NCBI RefSeq assembly: GCF_003387355.1
Contig: NZ_QUNH01000001.1
Span: 1,498,023 to 1,562,022, forward strand
Source of the DNA: Winogradskyella sediminis
GTDB taxonomy: Bacteria > Bacteroidota > Bacteroidia > Flavobacteriales > Flavobacteriaceae
Reading direction: 5' to 3'
DNA length: 64,000 nucleotides
Of the stretch, positions 11,503-57,683 are shown piece after piece. The translations under genes were made by a program, and so were the position numbers. Under the pieces are notes generated by a model. It was not told the origin of the DNA and made no database searches. It saw only the letters and a list, made by a program, of their open reading frames with translations. Positions within the stretch are counted from its first letter, which is position 1. The number at the start of each line of letters is the position of its first letter.

Positions 11503-12144
11503 TTATTTTTTTCGGCTAATGGTTAAACCATCTCTTATAGGGAGAAGAACAGTTTCAATACGTTCGTCGTTTTTAAGAAGTGTGTTATAATCTAAAACTG
11601 CTTTTGTCGATTTGTCCTTTGCGTCAAAAGGCTCTACCACTTTTCCATACCATAACACGTTATCAGAAAGAATTACACCTCCTGGTTTTAACTTATCAAT
11701 TATTAAATGAAAATAATTGGAATAATTAGGCTTATCGGCATCAATAAAAACTAAATCGAAGGTCTCATTTAACTCAGGAATGATATCTAAAGCGCTTCCT
11801 GTATGCTGAATGATTTGCTGTCCATATTCCGACTTGTTAAAATACTTTCGCTGAAAATCGACGAGTTCTTCATTAATATCAATTGTATGAAGCCTACCGT
11901 TTTCTTGAAGTCCTTCTGCCAAACATAATGTCGCATATCCGGTAAAAGTCCCTAATTCTAAAACCGTTTTGGGACGAATTAATTTCGATATCATACTTAA
12001 AACACGGCCTTGATAAGGGCCACTAAGCATTATCGGTTGTAGTACTTTTTGATAGGTTTCTCTAGTGAGTTGTTGCAGTAATTGAGGTTCTTGTTCAGAA
12101 TGGTCAACTACATATTTGTCTAAATTATCGGGCAAGAAAAACAT
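11503..12144 (-). CDS. Class I SAM-dependent O-methyltransferase (COMT-like)
   Basis: A 213-residue methyltransferase of the Methyltransf_3 / catechol O-methyltransferase-like family. Motif I VLELGTFTGYATLCLA binds S-adenosylmethionine, and FIDADKPNY supplies the metal aspartate and a catalytic lysine; DNVLWYGKV is the usual third motif. Such enzymes methylate a catechol-type hydroxyl in a Mg-dependent way. Being 41 bases downstream of the ACMS decarboxylase, it may act on an ortho-hydroxylated aromatic intermediate, but that is inference; equivalent genes also occur outside such clusters. Confidence 0.85.
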   Translation of the reverse strand: MFFLPDNLDKYVVDHSEQEPQLLQQLTRETYQKVLQPIMLSGPYQGRVLSMISKLIRPKTVLELGTFTGYATLCLAEGLQENGRLHTIDINEELVDFQRKYFNKSEYGQQIIQHTGSALDIIPELNETFDLVFIDADKPNYSNYFHLIIDKLKPGGVILSDNVLWYGKVVEPFDAKDKSTKAVLDYNTLLKNDERIETVLLPIRDGLTISRKK

Positions 12145-12185: not shown

Positions 12186-13271
12186 TTAAGACAAAATTCT
12201 ATCCATTAATTTCTTTTTAGCTGCATCATCATCTCCACATAACCATTGAATAACGTTGTCTTCCCATATAGCATCTCCTTCGGTTTTAGTAATTATCTCG
12301 CGTTCTATGGCTAAATCTATAATTTTACCTGGATAAGAGGATTGCTTTTCGCTTTCCATTTCCCCTAAAGGGTAAGGGTCGTCTAGTCCCATAATTACTT
12401 GTTTAGAACCTTGATTTCTAATTAATAATTCTAAACCACCTGTGTCATGCACTAAAGTGTCAAAGAATATATTTTTATGTCCTACAGCTTTTCTAGGATG
12501 ACTTTTACCTTCAAATAAATCTGGTCGTCCATCAAAGCCTTGAATCCGTCGTCCTAAATTAATTTGTGCCAATTGTCCGCCATGCGCAAAACAAGTACGC
12601 ATGTTAGGATATTTATCTTGGTAACCATTTAAGGTTAAAAAGTGGTACGCATCGCCACATTGTGCTAACATCCAAATTAAATGAAACCGCCACGATGTGT
12701 TTTCTAATTTTATAAACTTCTCGCCATCGTAAGGATGAATTTCAACAGCCAAATTATATTTGTTGGCCATTTCAAAAATAGGTTCATTTTCTTCATCAAA
12801 AATGCAACGCCAAGTGCCAATAGAATCCATATAATGCGTAGGTAAACATAAAAGTTGCATACCTAGAACTTCAACACAACGTTCAATTTCCCAACAAGCA
12901 CTTCTTACAAATCCAGGATGCACTACAAAACCACAGGTGAATTTACTAGGATGATTATGTTGCACTTTAGCATTAAAATCATTCTGAAATCGTAAGGCTT
13001 GTTTCATTTCTTCAACCCTTAAACCATTGCCGTAAAGTTGAGATAAATTTAAAACAACGGCATGGTCTAGCTTATTGCGCTCCATCCATTCTAGCTTTTC
13101 TTCTAAGAAAAAACTAGAATCTGTAATAGGACGATTCCAATCTTTCTGAAGCATAAATTTTCGGTCTTTATCGACCCAAAAAATACCTTTGTCTTTCATG
13201 AACTGAGGAATTTCTTCAGGGTAGGGAAGAAGGTGTGAGTGACCGTTTATTCTTAGTTTGCGTTTACTCAT
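12186..13271 (-). CDS. Amidohydrolase-family 2-amino-3-carboxymuconate-6-semialdehyde decarboxylase (ACMSD) candidate
   Basis: A 361-residue TIM-barrel amidohydrolase. The metal pair HSH is at residues 11-13, a barrel histidine is in CFAHGGQ and the last aspartate in MGLDDPYP. ACMSD removes CO2 from ACMS, the product of 3-hydroxyanthranilate dioxygenase, and so diverts it from quinolinate/NAD toward degradation. The assignment rests on family plus position 50 bases after the dioxygenase gene and in the same operon. No REP-like element lies in this gap, unlike the gaps upstream. Confidence 0.82.
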   Translation of the reverse strand: MSKRKLRINGHSHLLPYPEEIPQFMKDKGIFWVDKDRKFMLQKDWNRPITDSSFFLEEKLEWMERNKLDHAVVLNLSQLYGNGLRVEEMKQALRFQNDFNAKVQHNHPSKFTCGFVVHPGFVRSACWEIERCVEVLGMQLLCLPTHYMDSIGTWRCIFDEENEPIFEMANKYNLAVEIHPYDGEKFIKLENTSWRFHLIWMLAQCGDAYHFLTLNGYQDKYPNMRTCFAHGGQLAQINLGRRIQGFDGRPDLFEGKSHPRKAVGHKNIFFDTLVHDTGGLELLIRNQGSKQVIMGLDDPYPLGEMESEKQSSYPGKIIDLAIEREIITKTEGDAIWEDNVIQWLCGDDDAAKKKLMDRILS

Positions 13272-13321: not shown

Positions 13322-13801
13322 TTAGTCTTTTTTAATAGTCTTGTTATATCTATCAAAAATGGCAGGCATATCGGTTTCGATATTGTCCAAAGTAAATTCC
13401 TCTTCGTATAGCAAACTAGCATCTTTCTCAGAATACCATTGTAACTTATCTTTTACGCCTTCATCTCTTGGATACTCTATAACTAAACCAACAGTATTTG
13501 GTCCACGTTGTGGCGAATGCGGCACTTTTGGTGGTAATAAAAAGATGTCACCTTCCTTAATATGAATGTCTTTTGGTACACCATCATCAATGACTTTTAA
13601 AACAATGTCGCCTTCTACTTGATAGAAAAATTCTGGTGTTTCGTTATAATGATAATCTGTACGGTCGTTAGGTCCACCGACAACCATTACAATAAAGTCG
13701 CCATCTTTCCAAACCACTTTGTTACCAACAGGAGGTTTAAGTAAATGACGATTTTCTTCAATCCATTCTTTAAAATTTATGGGTGGAAATAGTTTGCTCA
13801 T
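13322..13801 (-). CDS. 3-hydroxyanthranilate 3,4-dioxygenase, cysteine-free form
   Basis: A 159-residue cupin dioxygenase opening the ring of 3-hydroxyanthranilate to ACMS. H51, E57 and H95 give the Fe(II) site at the same numbers as in the Cupriavidus enzyme, and R47, R99 and E109 fit the substrate site. The start MSKLF (13801) is used rather than an upstream start at 13822, because known enzymes begin there and a repeat element (13817-13891) covers the longer start. Unusually the protein has no cysteine at all: the second, rubredoxin-like iron site of many bacterial enzymes (WYCxxC) is replaced by WYSEKD and the C-terminal CxxC is absent. Confidence 0.92.
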
Positions 13802-13816
13802 GGTTATGTTGTTTTT

Positions 13817-13891
13817 TGTCATTCCTGCGCAGGCAGGAATCTATGTTATTATCAATCTTTATTTTGGATTCCTATGTTCACAAAAATGACA
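13817..13891. repeat. REP-like double hairpin, TGTCATTCC family (copy 1)
   Basis: A 75-bp element filling the gap between the SDR and dioxygenase genes. It starts TGTCATTCCTGCGCAGGCAG and ends with AATGACA. The left half folds as ATTCCTGC/GCAGGAAT. The right half (GGATTCC ... AATGACA) is decayed. Sister copies are at 16596-16670 and 57608-57680. Confidence 0.75.
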
Positions 13892-13901
13892 AGTCATAAA
13901 G

Positions 13902-14684
13902 TTACAAAGATTTTGTTCGTCCGCCATCAACAGGAAGGTTAATTCCGTTAATATAAGCAGCACGTTCACTCGCTAAAAATGTAATGGCATCGGCAAGCTC
14001 TTCTGGTTGCGCAAAGCGTTTTGCTGGTACTGCGTTTTTCATGGCATTTGCAGCTTCTTCTTCAGTATTTCCAGATTTAGCCGATTTGTTTTTTATAATT
14101 TGAGTTAAACGTTCTGTACCAGTAGCTCCAGGTAAAACATTGTTTACGGTAATACCAAATTGCCCCAATTCGTTAGCCAATGTTTTACTCCAATTGGCAA
14201 CGGCTCCTCTAATGGTATTACTAACACCAAGACCATCTAAAGGTTGTTTTACAGATGTTGAAATCACATTAATGACGCGACCAAAACCTTCCTCTTTCAT
14301 AAAAGGAACGGTAGTTTGAACTAAGACATGATTACATTTTAAATGTTGGGTGAATGCCGATTCAAATTCATCTACTTCAGCAGAAAAAACAGGACCTCCT
14401 TTTGGGCCTCCTGTATTATTTACCAAAATATGAAACCCATGATGGTTTGAAATATAATCTGAAACTTTAGATTTTAAATCCTCAGGATTTGAAAAATCAG
14501 CTACAATATAATCATGTGGTCTTTGTTGTGGTAATTCTGAAAGCACCGTTTTCAGTTTGTCTTCGTTTCTAGCGACAAGGGTTATTTGTACACCTTCTGC
14601 TGCTAAAGCCATTGCTGTTGCTTTTCCTATGCCTGCTGTGCTGCCGCAGACTAGTGCGTATTTGTTGTTTAATTCTAAATTCAT
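13902..14684 (-). CDS. SDR-family protein lacking the catalytic Tyr/Lys
   Basis: A 260-residue short-chain dehydrogenase/reductase fold in the kynurenine cluster. The cofactor loop CGSTAGIG (13-20) and NNTGG (89-93) are present, and ARN at 38-40 with K43 would favour NADP. The active-site serine region STS (142-144) is kept, but the usual YxxxK is replaced by SNTIR (S155, R159). A standard hydride-transfer mechanism is therefore doubtful; SDR relatives with SNTxR exist and their role is unclear. It may act on an intermediate of the pathway, but no step of the standard route requires it. Confidence 0.82.
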   Translation of the reverse strand: MNLELNNKYALVCGSTAGIGKATAMALAAEGVQITLVARNEDKLKTVLSELPQQRPHDYIVADFSNPEDLKSKVSDYISNHHGFHILVNNTGGPKGGPVFSAEVDEFESAFTQHLKCNHVLVQTTVPFMKEEGFGRVINVISTSVKQPLDGLGVSNTIRGAVANWSKTLANELGQFGITVNNVLPGATGTERLTQIIKNKSAKSGNTEEEAANAMKNAVPAKRFAQPEELADAITFLASERAAYINGINLPVDGGRTKSL

Positions 14685-14691
14685 AATATTT

Positions 14692-14717
14692 TGTCTGGTC
14701 GAGCGTAGTTAAGACCT
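14692..14717 (+). repeat. REP-like hairpin, TGTCTGG family (left border of GIY-YIG cassette)
   Basis: TGTCTGGTCGAGCGTAGTTA followed by AGACCT, a slightly decayed copy (T for C at two places) of the 26-bp hairpin TGTCTGG-TCGAGCGCAGTCGA-GACCT. It points outward from the GIY-YIG gene, with TGTC on the outside. Confidence 0.75.
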
Positions 14718-14773
14718 ACTTAGTTTTCAGGATTATAATTTGAATGTGTTGCATTTCTGCATTCAGATAGAAT

Positions 14774-15037
14774 TTATAACAAATCATAATCTCCTTTTAT
14801 TAAAGCATGTTTTTTCTTAGCACTCCATTTTTTTATTTTCTTTTCAAAGTATATTGCTTGTTCAATATCATTAAATTCTTGATGAAAAATTAATTTCAAA
14901 GGTCTTCTTTTATACGTGAAACAATTTTTATTTAATCCTTTTTGATGTTCTTCAAAACGTCTTGAAATGTCATTTGTTACTCCTGTATAAGTGAGGTTAT
15001 CTGAGCATTGTAATATGTAAATATAATAGGTTTTCAT
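14774..15037 (-). CDS. Single-domain GIY-YIG nuclease family protein
   Basis: An 87-residue GIY-YIG domain (UPF0213-like). The first motif is YYIYIL (residues 4-9), the second YTG (17-19), and catalytic R27, H31 and the metal-binding E65 are all present, so it could cut DNA. The start MKTYY at 15037 is preferred; an upstream start at 15043 adds two residues and touches the repeat. It is enclosed by inverted copies of the TGTCTGG hairpin (14692-14717 and 15042-15068) inside the kynurenine operon. Its function is unknown; mobility or repeat maintenance is a hypothesis. Confidence 0.88.
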   Translation of the reverse strand: MKTYYIYILQCSDNLTYTGVTNDISRRFEEHQKGLNKNCFTYKRRPLKLIFHQEFNDIEQAIYFEKKIKKWSAKKKHALIKGDYDLL

Positions 15038-15041
15038 AAGC

Positions 15042-15121
15042 AACCTCTCGACTGCGCTCGAGGCGACATTTTAGTTTTAATTTTATTTTTTTTATGTCTG
15101 GTCGAGCGCAGTCGAGACCTT
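15042..15121. repeat. Two REP-like hairpins, TGTCTGG family, in back-to-back orientation
   Basis: 15042-15068 is the inverted copy (CTCTCGACTGCGCTCGAG ending GCGACA) and 15094-15121 the direct copy (TGTCTGGTCGAGCGCAGTCG then AGACCT). They are about 28-bp arms of an 80-bp inverted repeat. The first closes the GIY-YIG cassette; the second abuts the aldehyde dehydrogenase stop codon. Confidence 0.8.
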
Positions 15122-15127
15122 GCTCTT

Positions 15128-16570
15128 TTAATATTTTATACAAACATTCTTAGCTTCCGTAAAAAAACGCAAAGCTTCAAATCCACCTTCGCGTCCTACG
15201 CCAGATGCTTTTACTCCTCCAAAAGGCGTTCTTAAATCGCGCATCATCCAAGTGTTTACCCAAACAATTCCTGCTTGTAGTTCGTTACTCATTCGCATAG
15301 TGCGTTTTAAACTGTTAGTCCATAATGTGGCTGATAAACCGTATTTTACTTTGTTTGCCATTTCTAAAACGTCGTCTTCTGATTTGAATGGCATGATGGT
15401 TACGACTGGTCCAAAAATTTCTTCTTGGTTTACTCTGCAGTCGTCATTTGGCACTTCAATAACCGTCGGCTCTAAATAATAACCGTTTTCAAAACCTTTA
15501 ATTGTGACTTCATTGCCGCCACATAAAACAGTTCCTTTTTCTTCTTTCGCAATGTTGATGTATGCTTTTACTTTCTCCAAATGCGATTTAGAGACTAATG
15601 CTCCAATATTGGTATCTGCTTCCGATGGATGTCCAACTTTTAAGGCTTTTACTTTTTCAACAAAGTCTTTTTTGAATTTATCATAGATAGACGCTTCCAC
15701 AAAAATGCGACTGCCACATAAGCAAATCTGTCCTTGATTAGCAAAAGAGGAACGTACAGTGGTATTCAACATGTCCTCATAATCACAATCGGCAAAAATG
15801 ATATTTGGGTTTTTCCCGCCTAATTCTAATGATAATTTTTTGAACATTGGTGCTGCAACTCTGGCAATATGTGCTCCTGTTGCTGTGCCTCCTGTAAAGC
15901 TTATGGCTTTAATGTCTGGATGTTCAATAATAGCTTGTCCTGTAGTTGTTCCTAAACCATGAACAATGTTTAAAACACCTTCTGGCAAACCTGCTTCGTT
16001 ACAAATTTCGCCAAGTAAATAAGCTGTCATTGGCGTGACTTCACTTGGTTTGGCAACGACGCAATTTCCTGCGGCTAGTGCTGGTGCTATTTTCCAGGTA
16101 AATAAATAGAGAGGAAGATTCCATGGTGAAATACAACCTACAACACCAATGGGTTGACGCAAGGTGTAATTAATAGCATTTTGACCTACAGATTCATGAC
16201 TTTCACTCGCGAATTGTGTTACCGCATTTCCGAAGAATCGAAAATTACTTGCTGCTCTAGGAATATCAATGGCTTTTGCTAATGAAATAGGCTTGCCATT
16301 GTCTTTACTTTCGGCTTCTGCAAAACGGTCTAAGTTGGCTTCTAATAATTCTGAAATTTTAATTAATATTCTGCTACGTTCTTCTAATGTGGTTTGACTC
16401 CAACTAGAGAATGCTGATTTTGCACTTTTGTATGCGCTTTCTACATCTTCTTTTGATGAGTTTGGAATTTGTCCGTAGATTTCCCCATTAGCTGGATTGT
16501 AGTTGTCTATCCAGTTGCCTTGAATTGGATTTTGGAATTTTCCTTTTATGTAGTTTTTGATAGTTATCAT
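15128..16570 (-). CDS. Aldehyde dehydrogenase, probable 2-aminomuconate-6-semialdehyde dehydrogenase
   Basis: A 480-residue NAD-dependent aldehyde dehydrogenase. The catalytic cysteine C283 lies in NQGQICLCG, the general base E249 in LELGGKNP, and N151 in PWNLP; the Rossmann FTGGTATG loop is at 226-233. In the kynurenine route it oxidises 2-aminomuconate semialdehyde, made spontaneously after ACMSD, to 2-aminomuconate. The substrate is inferred from its position between the deaminase and the dioxygenase/decarboxylase genes and from its likeness to hydroxymuconic semialdehyde dehydrogenases. Confidence 0.88.
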   Translation of the reverse strand: MITIKNYIKGKFQNPIQGNWIDNYNPANGEIYGQIPNSSKEDVESAYKSAKSAFSSWSQTTLEERSRILIKISELLEANLDRFAEAESKDNGKPISLAKAIDIPRAASNFRFFGNAVTQFASESHESVGQNAINYTLRQPIGVVGCISPWNLPLYLFTWKIAPALAAGNCVVAKPSEVTPMTAYLLGEICNEAGLPEGVLNIVHGLGTTTGQAIIEHPDIKAISFTGGTATGAHIARVAAPMFKKLSLELGGKNPNIIFADCDYEDMLNTTVRSSFANQGQICLCGSRIFVEASIYDKFKKDFVEKVKALKVGHPSEADTNIGALVSKSHLEKVKAYINIAKEEKGTVLCGGNEVTIKGFENGYYLEPTVIEVPNDDCRVNQEEIFGPVVTIMPFKSEDDVLEMANKVKYGLSATLWTNSLKRTMRMSNELQAGIVWVNTWMMRDLRTPFGGVKASGVGREGGFEALRFFTEAKNVCIKY

Positions 16571-16595
16571 GAATTCACGATTATTTATCTTGTTT

Positions 16596-16670
16596 TGTCA
16601 TTTCCAAAAGAGGAACGATTGGGAAATCTCATGATGCGATTTCTCGTCGCTGCGCTCTGTCGGAATGACA
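16596..16670. repeat. REP-like element, TGTCATTCC family (copy 2, diverged core)
   Basis: A 75-bp element between the deaminase and aldehyde dehydrogenase genes. It begins TGTCATTTCC and ends CGGAATGACA, which are the terminal inverted repeats of the family. The core (GGGAAATCTC ... TCGTCGCTGCGCTCTG) differs from the copies at 13817 and 57608, but the length is the same. Confidence 0.7.
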
Positions 16671-16677
16671 GAATATT

Positions 16678-17076
16678 TTATTTTGGTTTATAAGCCATAA
16701 CCTTTATCTCAACCACTAAATCAGGATGCGGTAACTGATGAACCGCAACAGTTGTTCTAGTTGGTCCTGTTTCTTTTTCAAAGAATTCAGCGTAGGCTTT
16801 GTTGTAATCAGCAAAGTCATTCATGTTCACTAAAAATGATGTGACATCAACGACATCTTTTAAGCTTGCTCCAACTTTTGCTAAGTTTTTTTCTATGTTT
16901 TTTAGGACTTCTTGGGTTTGGGTGTATGCGTTTAAACGTTTGGTTCCCATCTCGTCAATGATATCTACACCTGCGATAGTGTTGTCTGGTCGACGCGAAC
17001 TTGTTCCTGAGACGAATATGAAATCGCCTACTTGTTTTATGTGTGGATATGCTCCTCTTGGTGTTACTTCACTCAT
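16678..17076 (-). CDS. RidA-family protein, probable 2-aminomuconate deaminase
   Basis: A 132-residue YjgF/YER057c/UK114 (RidA) fold protein. R107 in GPTRTTV and E123 in VVEIKV are the conserved active-site residues of the trimer cleft. Classical RidA hydrolyses reactive enamines; in kynurenine clusters the member encoded there converts 2-aminomuconate to 4-oxalocrotonate with release of ammonia. The choice of that role comes from its place between kmo and the semialdehyde dehydrogenase. Both flanking gaps are filled with repeats. Confidence 0.82.
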
Positions 17077-17085
17077 GTCAATTAA

Positions 17086-17205
17086 AAGCCCATCCTAGCC
17101 TTCCCAATGGGAAGGAACTCTTACTCGGGCGAAAAAGAGTTTTTATATTATATTATTTTTTAAGCGCATTTGGTTCCCTTCCTTTGGAGGGGTTAGGGTA
17201 GGCTT
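17086..17205. repeat. Imperfect inverted repeat, AAGCC...CCTT / AAGG...GGCTT family
   Basis: The outer arms are AAGCCCATCCTAGCCTTCCC (17086-17105) and, read on the minus strand from 17205, AAGCCTACCCTAACCCCTCC. Each arm also folds on itself (CCTTCCC/GGGAAGG; GGTTCCCTTCC/GGAGGGG). An inner hairpin AACTCTT/AAGAGTT is present. It fills the kmo-deaminase gap and overlaps the kmo stop codon by two bases. Confidence 0.7.
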
Positions 17206-18601
17206 ACAAACCAGCAATCCTATCATCCTCTAAAATCGCCTCAGTTTCTGCGTTTACTTTGTCTAAAATGTCTTTTAAATCATCATCTGATGAAATAATC
17301 TTATCTGTTAATAGGTTTAAAATCGCCTTATCTTGTGCTCTTCCTTTTAACATGGCTAGTCGGTAACCTATGTTTTCATTAAAGGTTACTAAACTATATT
17401 TTGAGGAATACGCATTTTGAAATTCTTTTTCTAGTGCCATTTCAATTTTTCGTTTTTCTTGAAATATAGGATTTGCCACATGACCTTTCATTTCATGGAA
17501 ATTGTCAATAGCTAAATCGGCAATGGCATCTGTATCTTTCTTTCGGTTTTTCTCGTAAGTTTTAAATATTGCTTCCCAATTTTCTAAATTTTGGTCTAAA
17601 ACTTTATCGAATTCAACCACATCTTCAAACGAAGCATTCATACCTTGACCATAAAACGGTACAATGGCATGTGCGGAATCTCCCATTAATAGTGTATTTC
17701 CTTTGTAATGCCATGGCGAGCATTTTACCGTACCTAAAGCAGCTGTTGGATTTTCAAAAAAATCATCAACCAAATTCGGCATAATTGCTAAAGCATCTGG
17801 AAATTCTTTTTTGAAGAATTCCGTTACGACTTCAGGTGTTGTTAAATTATTAAAATTGTATTCGCCTTCATCATAACTTAAAAATAGCGTTACGGTAAAA
17901 CTACCATCTAAGTTGGGTAGCGCAATAAGCATAAAACTACTTCTTGGCCAAATATGTAAGGCATTTTTATAGGTTTTATAATCGCCAGTTTCTGTTGGTA
18001 AAAAGGTTAATTCTTTATAACCATGGCTTAGATACTCTTGTGAGAAACTGAATAAAAATTTCTTGCTTAAATAATAACTTTTTCTCAAGGCCGAACCTGC
18101 GCCATCTGTGGCAATGATGCAATCGGCATCTTCTATAAATTCGTTTTTTGAGTTATAATCTTGAAATAAAGCCGTGGTTTTTTCAAAATCTACGGATTTA
18201 CATTTTTTATTGAAATGAATGGTGACATTATCATGTTTTTCCGCTTCATTGAGAAGTAAAGCGTTTAAGTCGCCTCTAGAAATTGAGTTGATGTATTCGT
18301 AATCTCTTCCGCTATAATTAGACATGAAAGTCTTTCCTTCTTTATCGTGAATCATTCTACCATTCATTGGTATGCAAAGTTCTTTGACCTTGTCTTCTAG
18401 GCCAACGAGTTTGATTGCTTTGTTTCCACGGTCCGAAAATGCTAAGTTAATAGAACGACCAGCCGAAATGTCTGTGGTTCTTAAATCAGGTCGCATTTCG
18501 TAAACGGTTACGTCGTAGCCTCTTTGCCCTAGTCTTAGAGCTAAAAGGCTTCCGCAGAGTCCTGCGCCTATGATTAGAATGTTTTGTTGTTTATTACTCA
18601 T
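17204..18601 (-). CDS. kmo: Kynurenine 3-monooxygenase
   Basis: A 465-residue FAD monooxygenase that makes 3-hydroxykynurenine from kynurenine with NADPH and O2. The dinucleotide motif IIGAGLCGS (G12, G14, G17) starts the protein, and the second FAD motif GDSAHAIVPFYGQGMN is the hallmark of this flavoprotein class and closely fits KMO. RSFMLIAL and the long C-terminal helices fit the family. Length is normal. It lies second in the cluster, 72 bases after kynU, with that gap nearly filled by a repeat. Confidence 0.93.
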   Translation of the reverse strand: MSNKQQNILIIGAGLCGSLLALRLGQRGYDVTVYEMRPDLRTTDISAGRSINLAFSDRGNKAIKLVGLEDKVKELCIPMNGRMIHDKEGKTFMSNYSGRDYEYINSISRGDLNALLLNEAEKHDNVTIHFNKKCKSVDFEKTTALFQDYNSKNEFIEDADCIIATDGAGSALRKSYYLSKKFLFSFSQEYLSHGYKELTFLPTETGDYKTYKNALHIWPRSSFMLIALPNLDGSFTVTLFLSYDEGEYNFNNLTTPEVVTEFFKKEFPDALAIMPNLVDDFFENPTAALGTVKCSPWHYKGNTLLMGDSAHAIVPFYGQGMNASFEDVVEFDKVLDQNLENWEAIFKTYEKNRKKDTDAIADLAIDNFHEMKGHVANPIFQEKRKIEMALEKEFQNAYSSKYSLVTFNENIGYRLAMLKGRAQDKAILNLLTDKIISSDDDLKDILDKVNAETEAILEDDRIAGL

Positions 18602-18608
18602 ATGCTTT

Positions 18609-18667
18609 TGTCTGGTCGAGCGCAGTCGAGACCTAATTAAAAACTCTCGACTGCGCTCGAGTTGACC
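18609..18667. repeat. REP-like double hairpin, TGTCTGG family (compact 59-bp form)
   Basis: The left hairpin TGTCTGGTCGAGCGCAGTCG (18609-18628, through GACCT) and the right inverted hairpin CTCTCGACTGCGCTCGAG (18644-18661, ending TTGACC) are separated by an A+T spacer of about 8 bases. It nearly fills the kynU-kmo gap (18602-18673). It is the same head-to-head arrangement that encloses the GIY-YIG gene at 14692-15068, without the gene. Confidence 0.8.
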
Positions 18668-18673
18668 TTTAGT

Positions 18674-19942
18674 TTAATTCAAAATTTCTTTCATTTTTTC
18701 AACCATCAAATACACATCTTCAAATGAATTATATAAAGGTACAGGTGCACATCTAATAACGTCTGGTTCTCGCCAATCGCTAATAACGCCAGCTTCCGTT
18801 AATTTATCATGTAATGATTTGTCTGCATTTAAAACTTGAATAGATAGTTGACAACCACGCTCATCTGGGTTTTCAGGTGTGATAATTCTGATGGTATCTT
18901 CGCCTAAAGTTTTCAATAAAAATTCAAAATAACCCGTTAACTTTTTCGATTTTTTTAGAATTTTATCAAATCCGACTTCATGAAACATATCTAAAGAGGC
19001 TTTTATTGCTGCCATTGATAAAATTGGTGGATTACTCAGTTGCCAACCTTCGGCTCCTGGTAAAACATCAAACTCATGTCGCATATTAAATCGCGTATCC
19101 TTATTGTGGCTCCACCAACCTGTAAATCGGTTGAGGTCTTTATCGTGCGCATGTCTTTCATGCACAAAACAACCCGATAAACTTCCTGGCCCTGAATTTA
19201 AGTATTTATAGGTACACCAAATGGCAAAATCGGCTCCTGAATTATGTAAATCTAAATCTACGTTTCCGGCACCATGTGCGCAATCAAATCCGACTTTACA
19301 ACCGTAACTGTGACCAAGGTCTGTAATACGTTTAAAATCGAAAAACTGACCTGTGTAGTAATTGACTCCACCAATCATAATTAGTGCTATTTCATTACCA
19401 TGAGCTTCAAGAATGTCTTCTAAATCTTCATAACGCAATAATTCTTCGCCTTCTCTCGGTTTCCATAAAATTAAACCTTCTTTATCATCATAGCCATGAT
19501 GACGCAATTGTGATTCAACAGCATATTTATCTGAAGGGAAAGCATCACTTTCAATTAAGATTTTATAGCGTTCCTTAGTAGGTTGATAAAACGACACCAT
19601 CATAAAATGCAGATTTGCCGTTAAGGAATTCATAGTGACCACTTCAATGGGTTTTGCACCAACGAGTTTGGCTGTGGCTTCTGTTAGAAATTCATGATAT
19701 GGTAGCCAAGGATTTTTAGCATCTGTATGCCCTTCAACACCTAGATTTGCCCAATCTTCTAGTTCTTGATTAATATAAGCTTTTGTTGATTTCGGCTGTA
19801 AACCCAAAGAGTTGCCACAGAGGTAAATAAGGTCGTTCCCGTCTTTACCCTTTGGGATGTGAAACTGATTTCTATAGCTTGATAATGGATCTAATTGGTC
19901 TTGTTTTTGAGCATAATCAAGACTTAGTTTATAGTTGGACAA
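18674..19942 (-). CDS. kynU: Kynureninase
   Basis: A 422-residue PLP enzyme that cleaves kynurenine or 3-hydroxykynurenine to (3-hydroxy)anthranilate plus alanine. YLCGNSLGLQP near the N-terminus, DCAHGAGN and the PLP lysine in WCTYKYLNSGPG are diagnostic; GWWSHN and the C-terminal RCAPVPLYNSFED are also typical. The start is TTG at 19942 (MSNYKLSL); I see no in-frame ATG upstream. First gene of the minus-strand catabolic run, with its own promoter. Confidence 0.95.
   Translation of the reverse strand: MSNYKLSLDYAQKQDQLDPLSSYRNQFHIPKGKDGNDLIYLCGNSLGLQPKSTKAYINQELEDWANLGVEGHTDAKNPWLPYHEFLTEATAKLVGAKPIEVVTMNSLTANLHFMMVSFYQPTKERYKILIESDAFPSDKYAVESQLRHHGYDDKEGLILWKPREGEELLRYEDLEDILEAHGNEIALIMIGGVNYYTGQFFDFKRITDLGHSYGCKVGFDCAHGAGNVDLDLHNSGADFAIWCTYKYLNSGPGSLSGCFVHERHAHDKDLNRFTGWWSHNKDTRFNMRHEFDVLPGAEGWQLSNPPILSMAAIKASLDMFHEVGFDKILKKSKKLTGYFEFLLKTLGEDTIRIITPENPDERGCQLSIQVLNADKSLHDKLTEAGVISDWREPDVIRCAPVPLYNSFEDVYLMVEKMKEILN

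Positions 19943-55961: not shown

Positions 55962-57683
<1,722 letters not shown>

Follow-up and report, generated by a model that had tools for sequence, protein, structure and literature searches.

TGTC-headed palindromes in the gaps of a Winogradskyella kynurenine operon as probable ends and remnants of small GIY-YIG elements

A stretch of 64,000 nucleotides from Winogradskyella sediminis (contig NZ_QUNH01000001.1, positions 1,498,023 to 1,562,022 of the forward strand; hereafter the window, numbered from its first letter) carries on its minus strand a kynurenine (kyn) operon whose genes were assigned by Pfam and named from pathway knowledge. The run consists of kynU for kynureninase (18674..19942; PF22580, PF00266), kmo for kynurenine 3-monooxygenase (17204..18601; PF01494; 80 relatives), a RidA-like deaminase (16678..17076; PF01042), an aldehyde dehydrogenase (ALDH; 15128..16570; PF00171), a short-chain dehydrogenase (SDR; 13902..14684; PF13561), 3-hydroxyanthranilate dioxygenase (HAO; 13322..13822; PF06052; the true start is probably near 13801), an amidohydrolase of the 2-amino-3-carboxymuconate semialdehyde decarboxylase (ACMSD) type (12186..13271; PF04909) and an O-methyltransferase (OMT; 11503..12144; PF01596). 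The five core gaps from kynU to HAO hold palindromes, and those with a TGTC head probably belong to tiny mobile elements that encode a GIY-YIG nuclease and would be moved by it.

A preliminary description of the window had placed a palindrome in each core gap, which is borne out by reading of the sequence, by a mismatch-limited pattern search across the 64 kb and by folding. The kynU/kmo gap holds a pair of arms of the family labelled F1 with no gene between them (18609..18667, minus strand); the head of its left arm is degenerate, and its arm types and their order are those around the GIY-YIG gene described below. The kmo/RidA-like gap is occupied by F4 (17086..17205), which ends in AAGCC..GGCTT without a TGTC head and is the sole copy found in this genome with the mismatch limits used. 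A TGTC-headed heterodimer, F3 (16596..16670; TGTCATTTCC..GGAATGACA), lies in the RidA-like/ALDH gap, and an F2 pair with a TGTC head, an 8-bp stem, a 4-nt loop and a degenerate second arm (13817..13891) lies in the SDR/HAO gap. The folded stretches of the five gaps gave z-scores of -6.9, -3.1, -3.3, -9.9 and -2.3 relative to shuffled sequences, with the ALDH/SDR stretch taken as 15038-15127 only and the SDR/HAO stretch without the first six bases of F2. The same description held that the HAO/ACMSD and ACMSD/OMT gaps lack such structures and that groES/groEL is the only other site in the window; neither of the two gaps has a palindrome (folding gave 0 kcal/mol), and the one remaining match is an F2 heterodimer adjoining groEL on the groES side (57608..57680), the sole other member found in the window. 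Its statement that the families are three and unrelated stands only in part: F1, F2 and F3 have a common build, an inverted pair of TGTC-headed hairpins, whereas F4, a fourth label, is built differently.

The ALDH/SDR gap had been described as filled by a hairpin, and three F1 arms are indeed present, but a gene was overlooked there. This gene (14774..15037, on the operon strand, minus) encodes a GIY-YIG protein of 87 amino acids (aa) that matches PF01541 with 64.1 bits (cut-off 22.6) and has solved relatives in the UPF0213 structures 1zg2 and 1ywl. The gene may be decaying, because an in-frame stop ends the open reading frame (ORF) before the length of its close relatives, which mostly have 103-106 aa. 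Two inverted F1 arms enclose the gene, one at the 5' end of the element (15043..15068, minus strand; left-arm motif with one mismatch) and one at the 3' end (14692..14717, minus strand; right-arm motif with three mismatches). A third, right-type arm lies outside, upstream of the element (15095..15120, minus strand; an exact match to the right-arm motif), and pairs with the arm at 15043-15068 as a long hairpin (fold z-score -9.9). Alignment of 99-101 GIY-YIG proteins shows the catalytic-type residues Y, Y, G, R, H and E in columns that are conserved at 1.00.

Small GIY-YIG genes are often bracketed by inverted repeats in the genus. Each of 60 genus genomes, this one included, has 2-15 GIY-YIG matches (E <=1e-9, long proteins included), and the loci sampled from them, 30 match loci and 60 stretches, most of which stand high on the PF01541 list, were chosen regardless of their flanks. 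With a flank-to-flank inverted repeat defined by a score >=28, such a repeat was found at 53 of 91 small GIY-YIG genes compared with 4 of 178 other genes at the unique genus loci from the PF01541 list, and at 68 of 117 compared with 35 of 1677 at all loci, a few of which overlap and from which eight of 125 GIY-YIG hits (>175 aa) had been dropped. These control genes replaced a permutation control that is inflated as loci share palindromes (5/33 over its 99% line). When genes were grouped by distinct gene context, 42 of 61 contexts had a bracketed member, or 37 of 61 if each was judged by its middle member. Patterns written after reading the GIY-YIG flanks placed an identical named palindrome on both flanks of 83 of 117 GIY-YIG genes and 24 of 1677 others; eight palindrome types were named at these flanks, and 16 of the 117 genes were left without an assigned type. 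In the genus, arms of the F2 and F5 types mostly end in TCT or TCC. Tandem GIY-YIG units occur at four loci (comparison loci carry L numbers, and genomes G numbers), with identities between neighbours of 99.3% (L174, a 441-bp unit), 92.5% (L227), 82% (L192) and 73% (L188).

The type of palindrome follows the nuclease clade. On a tree of 109 rows, 101 of them GIY-YIG proteins from the loci and eight added, the palindrome label changes 12 times (minimum 8), compared with a mean of 57.0 after shuffling, and none of 200 shuffles was as low; many forks of this tree are poorly resolved, near-copies help the clustering, and five alphaproteobacterial rows make up one of the 9 groups. Most types are found in several gene contexts: 12 contexts among 26 genes for F1, 10 among 15 for F2, 7 among 13 for F5, 12 among 12 for F7 and 5 among 5 for F10, all of them upper bounds, as some neighbouring frames are doubtful or are another GIY-YIG copy. 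The contexts in which palindrome-nuclease pairs recur include, besides the kyn operon, thiolase/paaZ, his and trp genes, identified by eye from the neighbours' translations. Co-directionality with both neighbours was observed for 92 of 114 GIY-YIG genes. Genomes with a GIY-YIG relative at >=60% have a median of 9 F1 half-sites (21 genomes), compared with 2 in the 39 genomes without one (p 8e-5, uncorrected for kinship).

Similar arrangements exist in other bacterial groups. From a tblastn search of a plasmid collection, which gave at least 30 and 45 records in two listings, 26 loci were fetched, mostly one per species (Listeria, Legionella, Enterococcus and some others were left out). The flank repeat score was >=28 at 18 of these 26 GIY-YIG loci, a count taken at GIY-YIG loci only and without control genes, and [CT]GTC hairpins lay on both sides at 10 of 24, namely in Azospirillum lipoferum, Sphingobium, Rhizobium CIAT894, Sinorhizobium meliloti, three Shinella, Neorhizobium, Novosphingobium aromaticivorans and Aeromonas caviae. 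The rhizobial and Azospirillum arms end in TCCA. On AZO_p3 of A. lipoferum (L234), a GIY-YIG element bracketed by CGTC pairs separates sufB from sufC.

The same gaps in relatives of the operon (80 loci, the best 80 of 332) range from overlaps to several kb. With the window counted among these loci, a junction of <=25 bp is found at 24 of 81 for kynU/kmo, 26 of 78 for kmo/RidA-like, 13 of 76 for RidA-like/ALDH, 7 of 73 for ALDH/SDR and 19 of 74 for SDR/HAO. Compact junctions are common at most gaps, in answer to the comparison for empty gaps that the preliminary description had called for, and elements of the four families are not conserved at the base level, whereas such conservation would have counted against a special status of the operon. 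A small GIY-YIG gene or fragment is present in 17 of the gaps (8 RidA-like/ALDH and 9 ALDH/SDR, with the window included alongside the 80 relatives). Each of the 17 has the orientation of the operon; F1 occurs in the same gap in 16 cases, and the remaining one is bracketed by F2. The RidA-like/ALDH gap is found empty, as 4-bp overlaps in L067, L102 and L080; full, with complete elements in L091, L092 and L103; and deleted, with remnants in which the nuclease gene's end and its arm can still be aligned, clearly in L096 and over a shorter stretch in L104. Similarly, an F1 pair fills a kynU/kmo gap of 69-73 bp in several species, and others have a 5-bp overlap. The motif AACTAAA often stands directly before the left TGTC in different gaps (L037 and L046 in kynU/kmo, L092 and L103 in RidA-like/ALDH) and may belong to the element or mark a favoured target.

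It is proposed that TGTC/CGTC palindromes are the ends and the gene-less remnants of GIY-YIG elements, many of which sit in operon gaps. The element would consist of a TGTC-hairpin, a small GIY-YIG nuclease gene and a hairpin-GACA, about 350-400 bp in all; the ALDH/SDR gap would hold the complete form, and the other TGTC pairs of the operon would be gene-less forms resembling doublets of repetitive extragenic palindromes (REPs), known as REPINs, or miniature inverted-repeat transposable elements (MITEs). Most gene-bearing elements would settle between neighbours that point the same way, and their nuclease gene, apparently without a promoter of its own, would be read together with the host genes; single arms may also sit inside genes. 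The nuclease would recognise the palindrome family of its own element and cut at or near the hairpin foot, after which copying in repair or replication would spread full and gene-less units; later the nuclease gene would decay and the palindrome remain. If this is true, it supplies a reason for the several GIY-YIG genes per genus genome, gap-filled operons are accumulations of element ends, and 350-400 bp is, judged from recall, a very small size for a mobile element that encodes its own enzyme.

Several facts weigh against this proposal. Neither movement nor cleavage was observed, and target duplication is not evident at the sites read, where the flanks are too diverged for a firm test. Among the 17 F1 elements fetched from this genome, eight consist of one arm that lies in an open frame of >=400 aa, although two of the eight are 2-mismatch matches that may be chance. 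F11 brackets 10 genes in 2 contexts only and looks vertically inherited, judging by its distribution; co-directionality of GIY-YIG genes with their neighbours is only moderately above that of a small control (15/24); and three genomes have many F1 sites and no GIY-YIG match at E <=1e-15 (27 in G021, 14 in G039, 12 in G052). A strict detector of tagged hairpins on both sides, applied in the genus, scored 7 of 117 GIY-YIG genes and 15 of 1677 controls, finding few cases because many arms are imperfect. In the plasmid collection, no bracket was found at 8 of 26 loci: two of the YazA type, those of R. tumorigenes, Photobacterium, Cupriavidus and Salinivibrio, one that is broken and one that is mis-framed (a close relative, L248, scores 36). 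The arms in the Neisseria gonorrhoeae record (L249) are reversed, with the head towards the gene, and the Methylobacterium repeats lack a [CT]GTC hairpin.

Free-standing GIY-YIG homing endonucleases and the endonucleases of group I introns combine a GIY-YIG catalytic domain with selfish spread, and the strongest rival explanation, though an unlikely one, is that a homing-type nuclease invades the loop between arms moved by something else, so that the bracket is its target rather than its own ends. The specificity of nuclease clades for palindromes fits a target-recognising nuclease as well, and F1/F2 units without a GIY-YIG gene outnumber the GIY-YIG genes of this genome. However, the gene-less F1 pairs of kynU/kmo gaps keep the left and right arm types and order of complete elements, and L096 and L104 have the look of elements that lost a part; both count against homing, because they are expected if the pairs arose from complete elements. 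No further enzyme came to light at F1 or F2 in a search that covered Y1 transposases only. The loci also differ from those of homing and intron endonucleases in that no intron was seen, the ends are palindromic and the sites are chromosomal operon gaps.

Proposed as the alternative to a preferred landing zone, retention of the hairpins as a means to set the stability of mRNA segments or the proportions of enzymes in the kyn operon is improbable. Most shuffled sequences fold less well than the five gap RNAs (z-scores from -2.3 to -9.9), and mRNA stabilisation and termination are among the roles hypothesised for REPs (PMC3733652, in the sections drawn on here). Nevertheless, neither the position nor the family of the palindromes is conserved and many relatives have almost no gap; such turnover among palindrome types speaks against a conserved function, and a contribution to mRNA stability is possible without being needed to explain the hairpins. 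The landing zone itself fares better. With the mismatch limits used, the 3.8-Mb genome contains 53 merged elements (19 F1, 30 F2, 3 F3 and 1 F4), and it has 24 F1 half-sites and 35 F2 units that are often paired, with F1 singles common and F3 and F4 rare; this is far from a genome in which most intergenic gaps are filled, the outcome that would have removed the operon's special status. Five of the 53 lie within 5 kb at the kyn operon, a concentration matched by one of 20,000 uniform random placements, so the earlier view that five of five gaps is hard to see as chance holds, with the qualification that the figure is post hoc, for a region chosen because it stood out, and assumes uniform placement. 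Among co-directional gaps of 40-700 bp at the 80 related kyn loci, palindrome types known from GIY-YIG flanks occur in 107 of 336 gaps within the operon and in 7 of 174 others. For all named families the counts are 137 of 336 and 8 of 174, a comparison biased by families first seen in kyn gaps. The count of perfect hairpins ranks oppositely (24/336 inside, 62/174 outside); the 14 outside hairpins that were printed look from their sequences like ordinary terminators. Termination was discarded as the nature of the element hairpins, as that count picked out terminators beyond the operon and not these elements. The kyn operon is not unique, since 19 kb in the phenylacetate region of this genome contain six F1/F2 elements along with two GIY-YIG genes, with three of four F1 arms within genes, and some elements lie in gaps of trp, arg and mur gene runs (named by eye). 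The data support the kyn operon as a recurrent landing zone, though not as the only one.

Movement by a RAYT or other Y1 tyrosine transposase, as for REPs with a GTAG head, is very improbable. Y1_Tnp matches exist in 26 of 60 genus genomes, but F1 or F2 brackets the gene at none of the 30 loci examined from 42 listed matches, many weak Y1 genes of ~500 aa carry a palindrome of their own, this genome has a 24-bit match only, and the sections consulted of a survey of REPs report no Y1 gene flanked by CGTC repeats (PMC3733652). RAYT was rejected as the mover of F1 and F2 on the loci examined, and the heads of the repeats described here are TGTC/CGTC and not GTAG. The weak Y1_Tnp genes of ~500 aa at L030, L121, L125, L127, L128, L131, L132 and L133 have palindromes like AAACCTTGTAGGT/CCTGCAAGGTTT, a separate REP-like family. 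That vertical inheritance and the choice of operons rich in palindromes merely simulate the association can be all but dismissed: part of the sample was reached through the kyn operon and F11 is mostly one orthologous site, but the enrichment stands in the flank-blind PF01541 loci (53/91 compared with 4/178), when counted by context (42 of 61) and among bacteria outside the genus.

The GIY-YIG elements resemble repeats known from a 2013 survey by Di Nocera et al., the relevant sections of which recognise two large REP classes and describe a CGTC-tagged class with TGTC variants (PMC3733652). In those sections the CGTC REPs apparently have no dedicated transposase, and movement by other transposases is left open (PMC3733652). 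Likenesses are the CGTC/TGTC head, the short hairpin, the frequent pairing as inverted dimers and the mostly intergenic location; F2 is like family 1 of the CGTC REPs in its 4-nt loop and its 8-bp stem, which starts with AT; and carriers named there (PMC3733652), A. lipoferum, N. aromaticivorans, S. meliloti and Neisseria, have records here in which GIY-YIG genes adjoin such repeats. CGTC REPs also carry an unpaired tail close to CCA, with which the TCCA ends of the rhizobial and Azospirillum arms and the mostly TCT or TCC ends of the F2- and F5-type arms can be compared. A CGTC-type head is CGTC, TGTC or CCTC at one end, and the arms of F1, F2 and F3 have TGTC. The systems differ in that no transposase is reported in the sections on CGTC REPs whereas a bracketed GIY-YIG gene is found here, and in that the F1 hairpin, ~22 nt and bulged, is outside their rules of an 8-9 bp stem that begins with A-T pairs and a 4-5 nt loop (PMC3733652). 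REPtrons, which combine a RAYT with GTAG REPs, are likewise small genes for a DNA-cutting enzyme bracketed by enzyme-specific palindromes, with derivatives that lack the gene, but have an HUH/Y1 enzyme and a GTAG head in place of GIY-YIG and TGTC/CGTC (PMC3733652). Terminal inverted repeats, an internal gene and internally deleted forms, all found here, are features of insertion sequences and MITEs. UPF0213/YazA/YhbQ proteins (called the Slx1 family in the passage of PMC7017083 used here) share fold family and size with the nuclease (1zg2, 1ywl), but the two YazA-type loci, between a tRNA methyltransferase gene and rsmI, are unbracketed (scores 17 and 16). Rickettsia palindromic elements and neisserial dRS3 have a similar head, and F1 too is found inside reading frames; they differ in that the relevant sections report no enzyme for them (PMC3733652). 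One N. gonorrhoeae record (L249) was compared here. No link between GIY-YIG and TGTC/CGTC repeats was found in the open-access literature among the matches listed, and earlier work elsewhere is possible; the only paper found with both GIY-YIG and extragenic palindromes has them, in the parts retrieved, in unrelated passages (PMC9465073). Small GIY-YIG nucleases may well be the missing enzyme of TGTC/CGTC-tagged REPs across phyla, with REPs spreading independently of RAYTs and riding as passengers in operon gaps. Palindromes of the REP kind are common repeats in bacteria. If true, this proposal gives a testable enzyme to the CGTC-tagged class, for which the sections used of the 2013 survey know none (PMC3733652).

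The phenylacetate region (L010; C1:34500-54400), with genes identified by eye, forms a second hot zone of F1, F2 and GIY-YIG genes. Single F1 arms in long open frames lie at L010:1447, 4321 and 13638, L017:622 and 1384, and L020:765, and in two of those frames they are readable in frame as SSSAVETS. Palindromes in frame within reading frames are reportedly a feature of Rickettsia palindromic elements. The same region holds a DUF559 domain ahead of a threonine-dehydratase-like ORF and, at L010:12939-13322, an ORF for an S23-like four-helix bundle (127 aa, named by eye) between AGGAATTAGGGATTAGG-type inverted repeats, which came from the control list. F4 belongs to a different class of palindrome, for which a tie to DUF559 nucleases is possibly a lead. 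DUF559 was not retained as the partner of F4, the cases being too few: of nine short DUF559 genes (117-122 aa), three have palindromes on both sides, and the other 21 loci of the sample comprise 18 with frames >260 aa and three with short or broken frames. The three bracketed genes, at L266, L276 and L285, lie between CCTCCCTTTCAGAAAGGGAGG or TGTCCCCTTGAGGGGAC palindromes.

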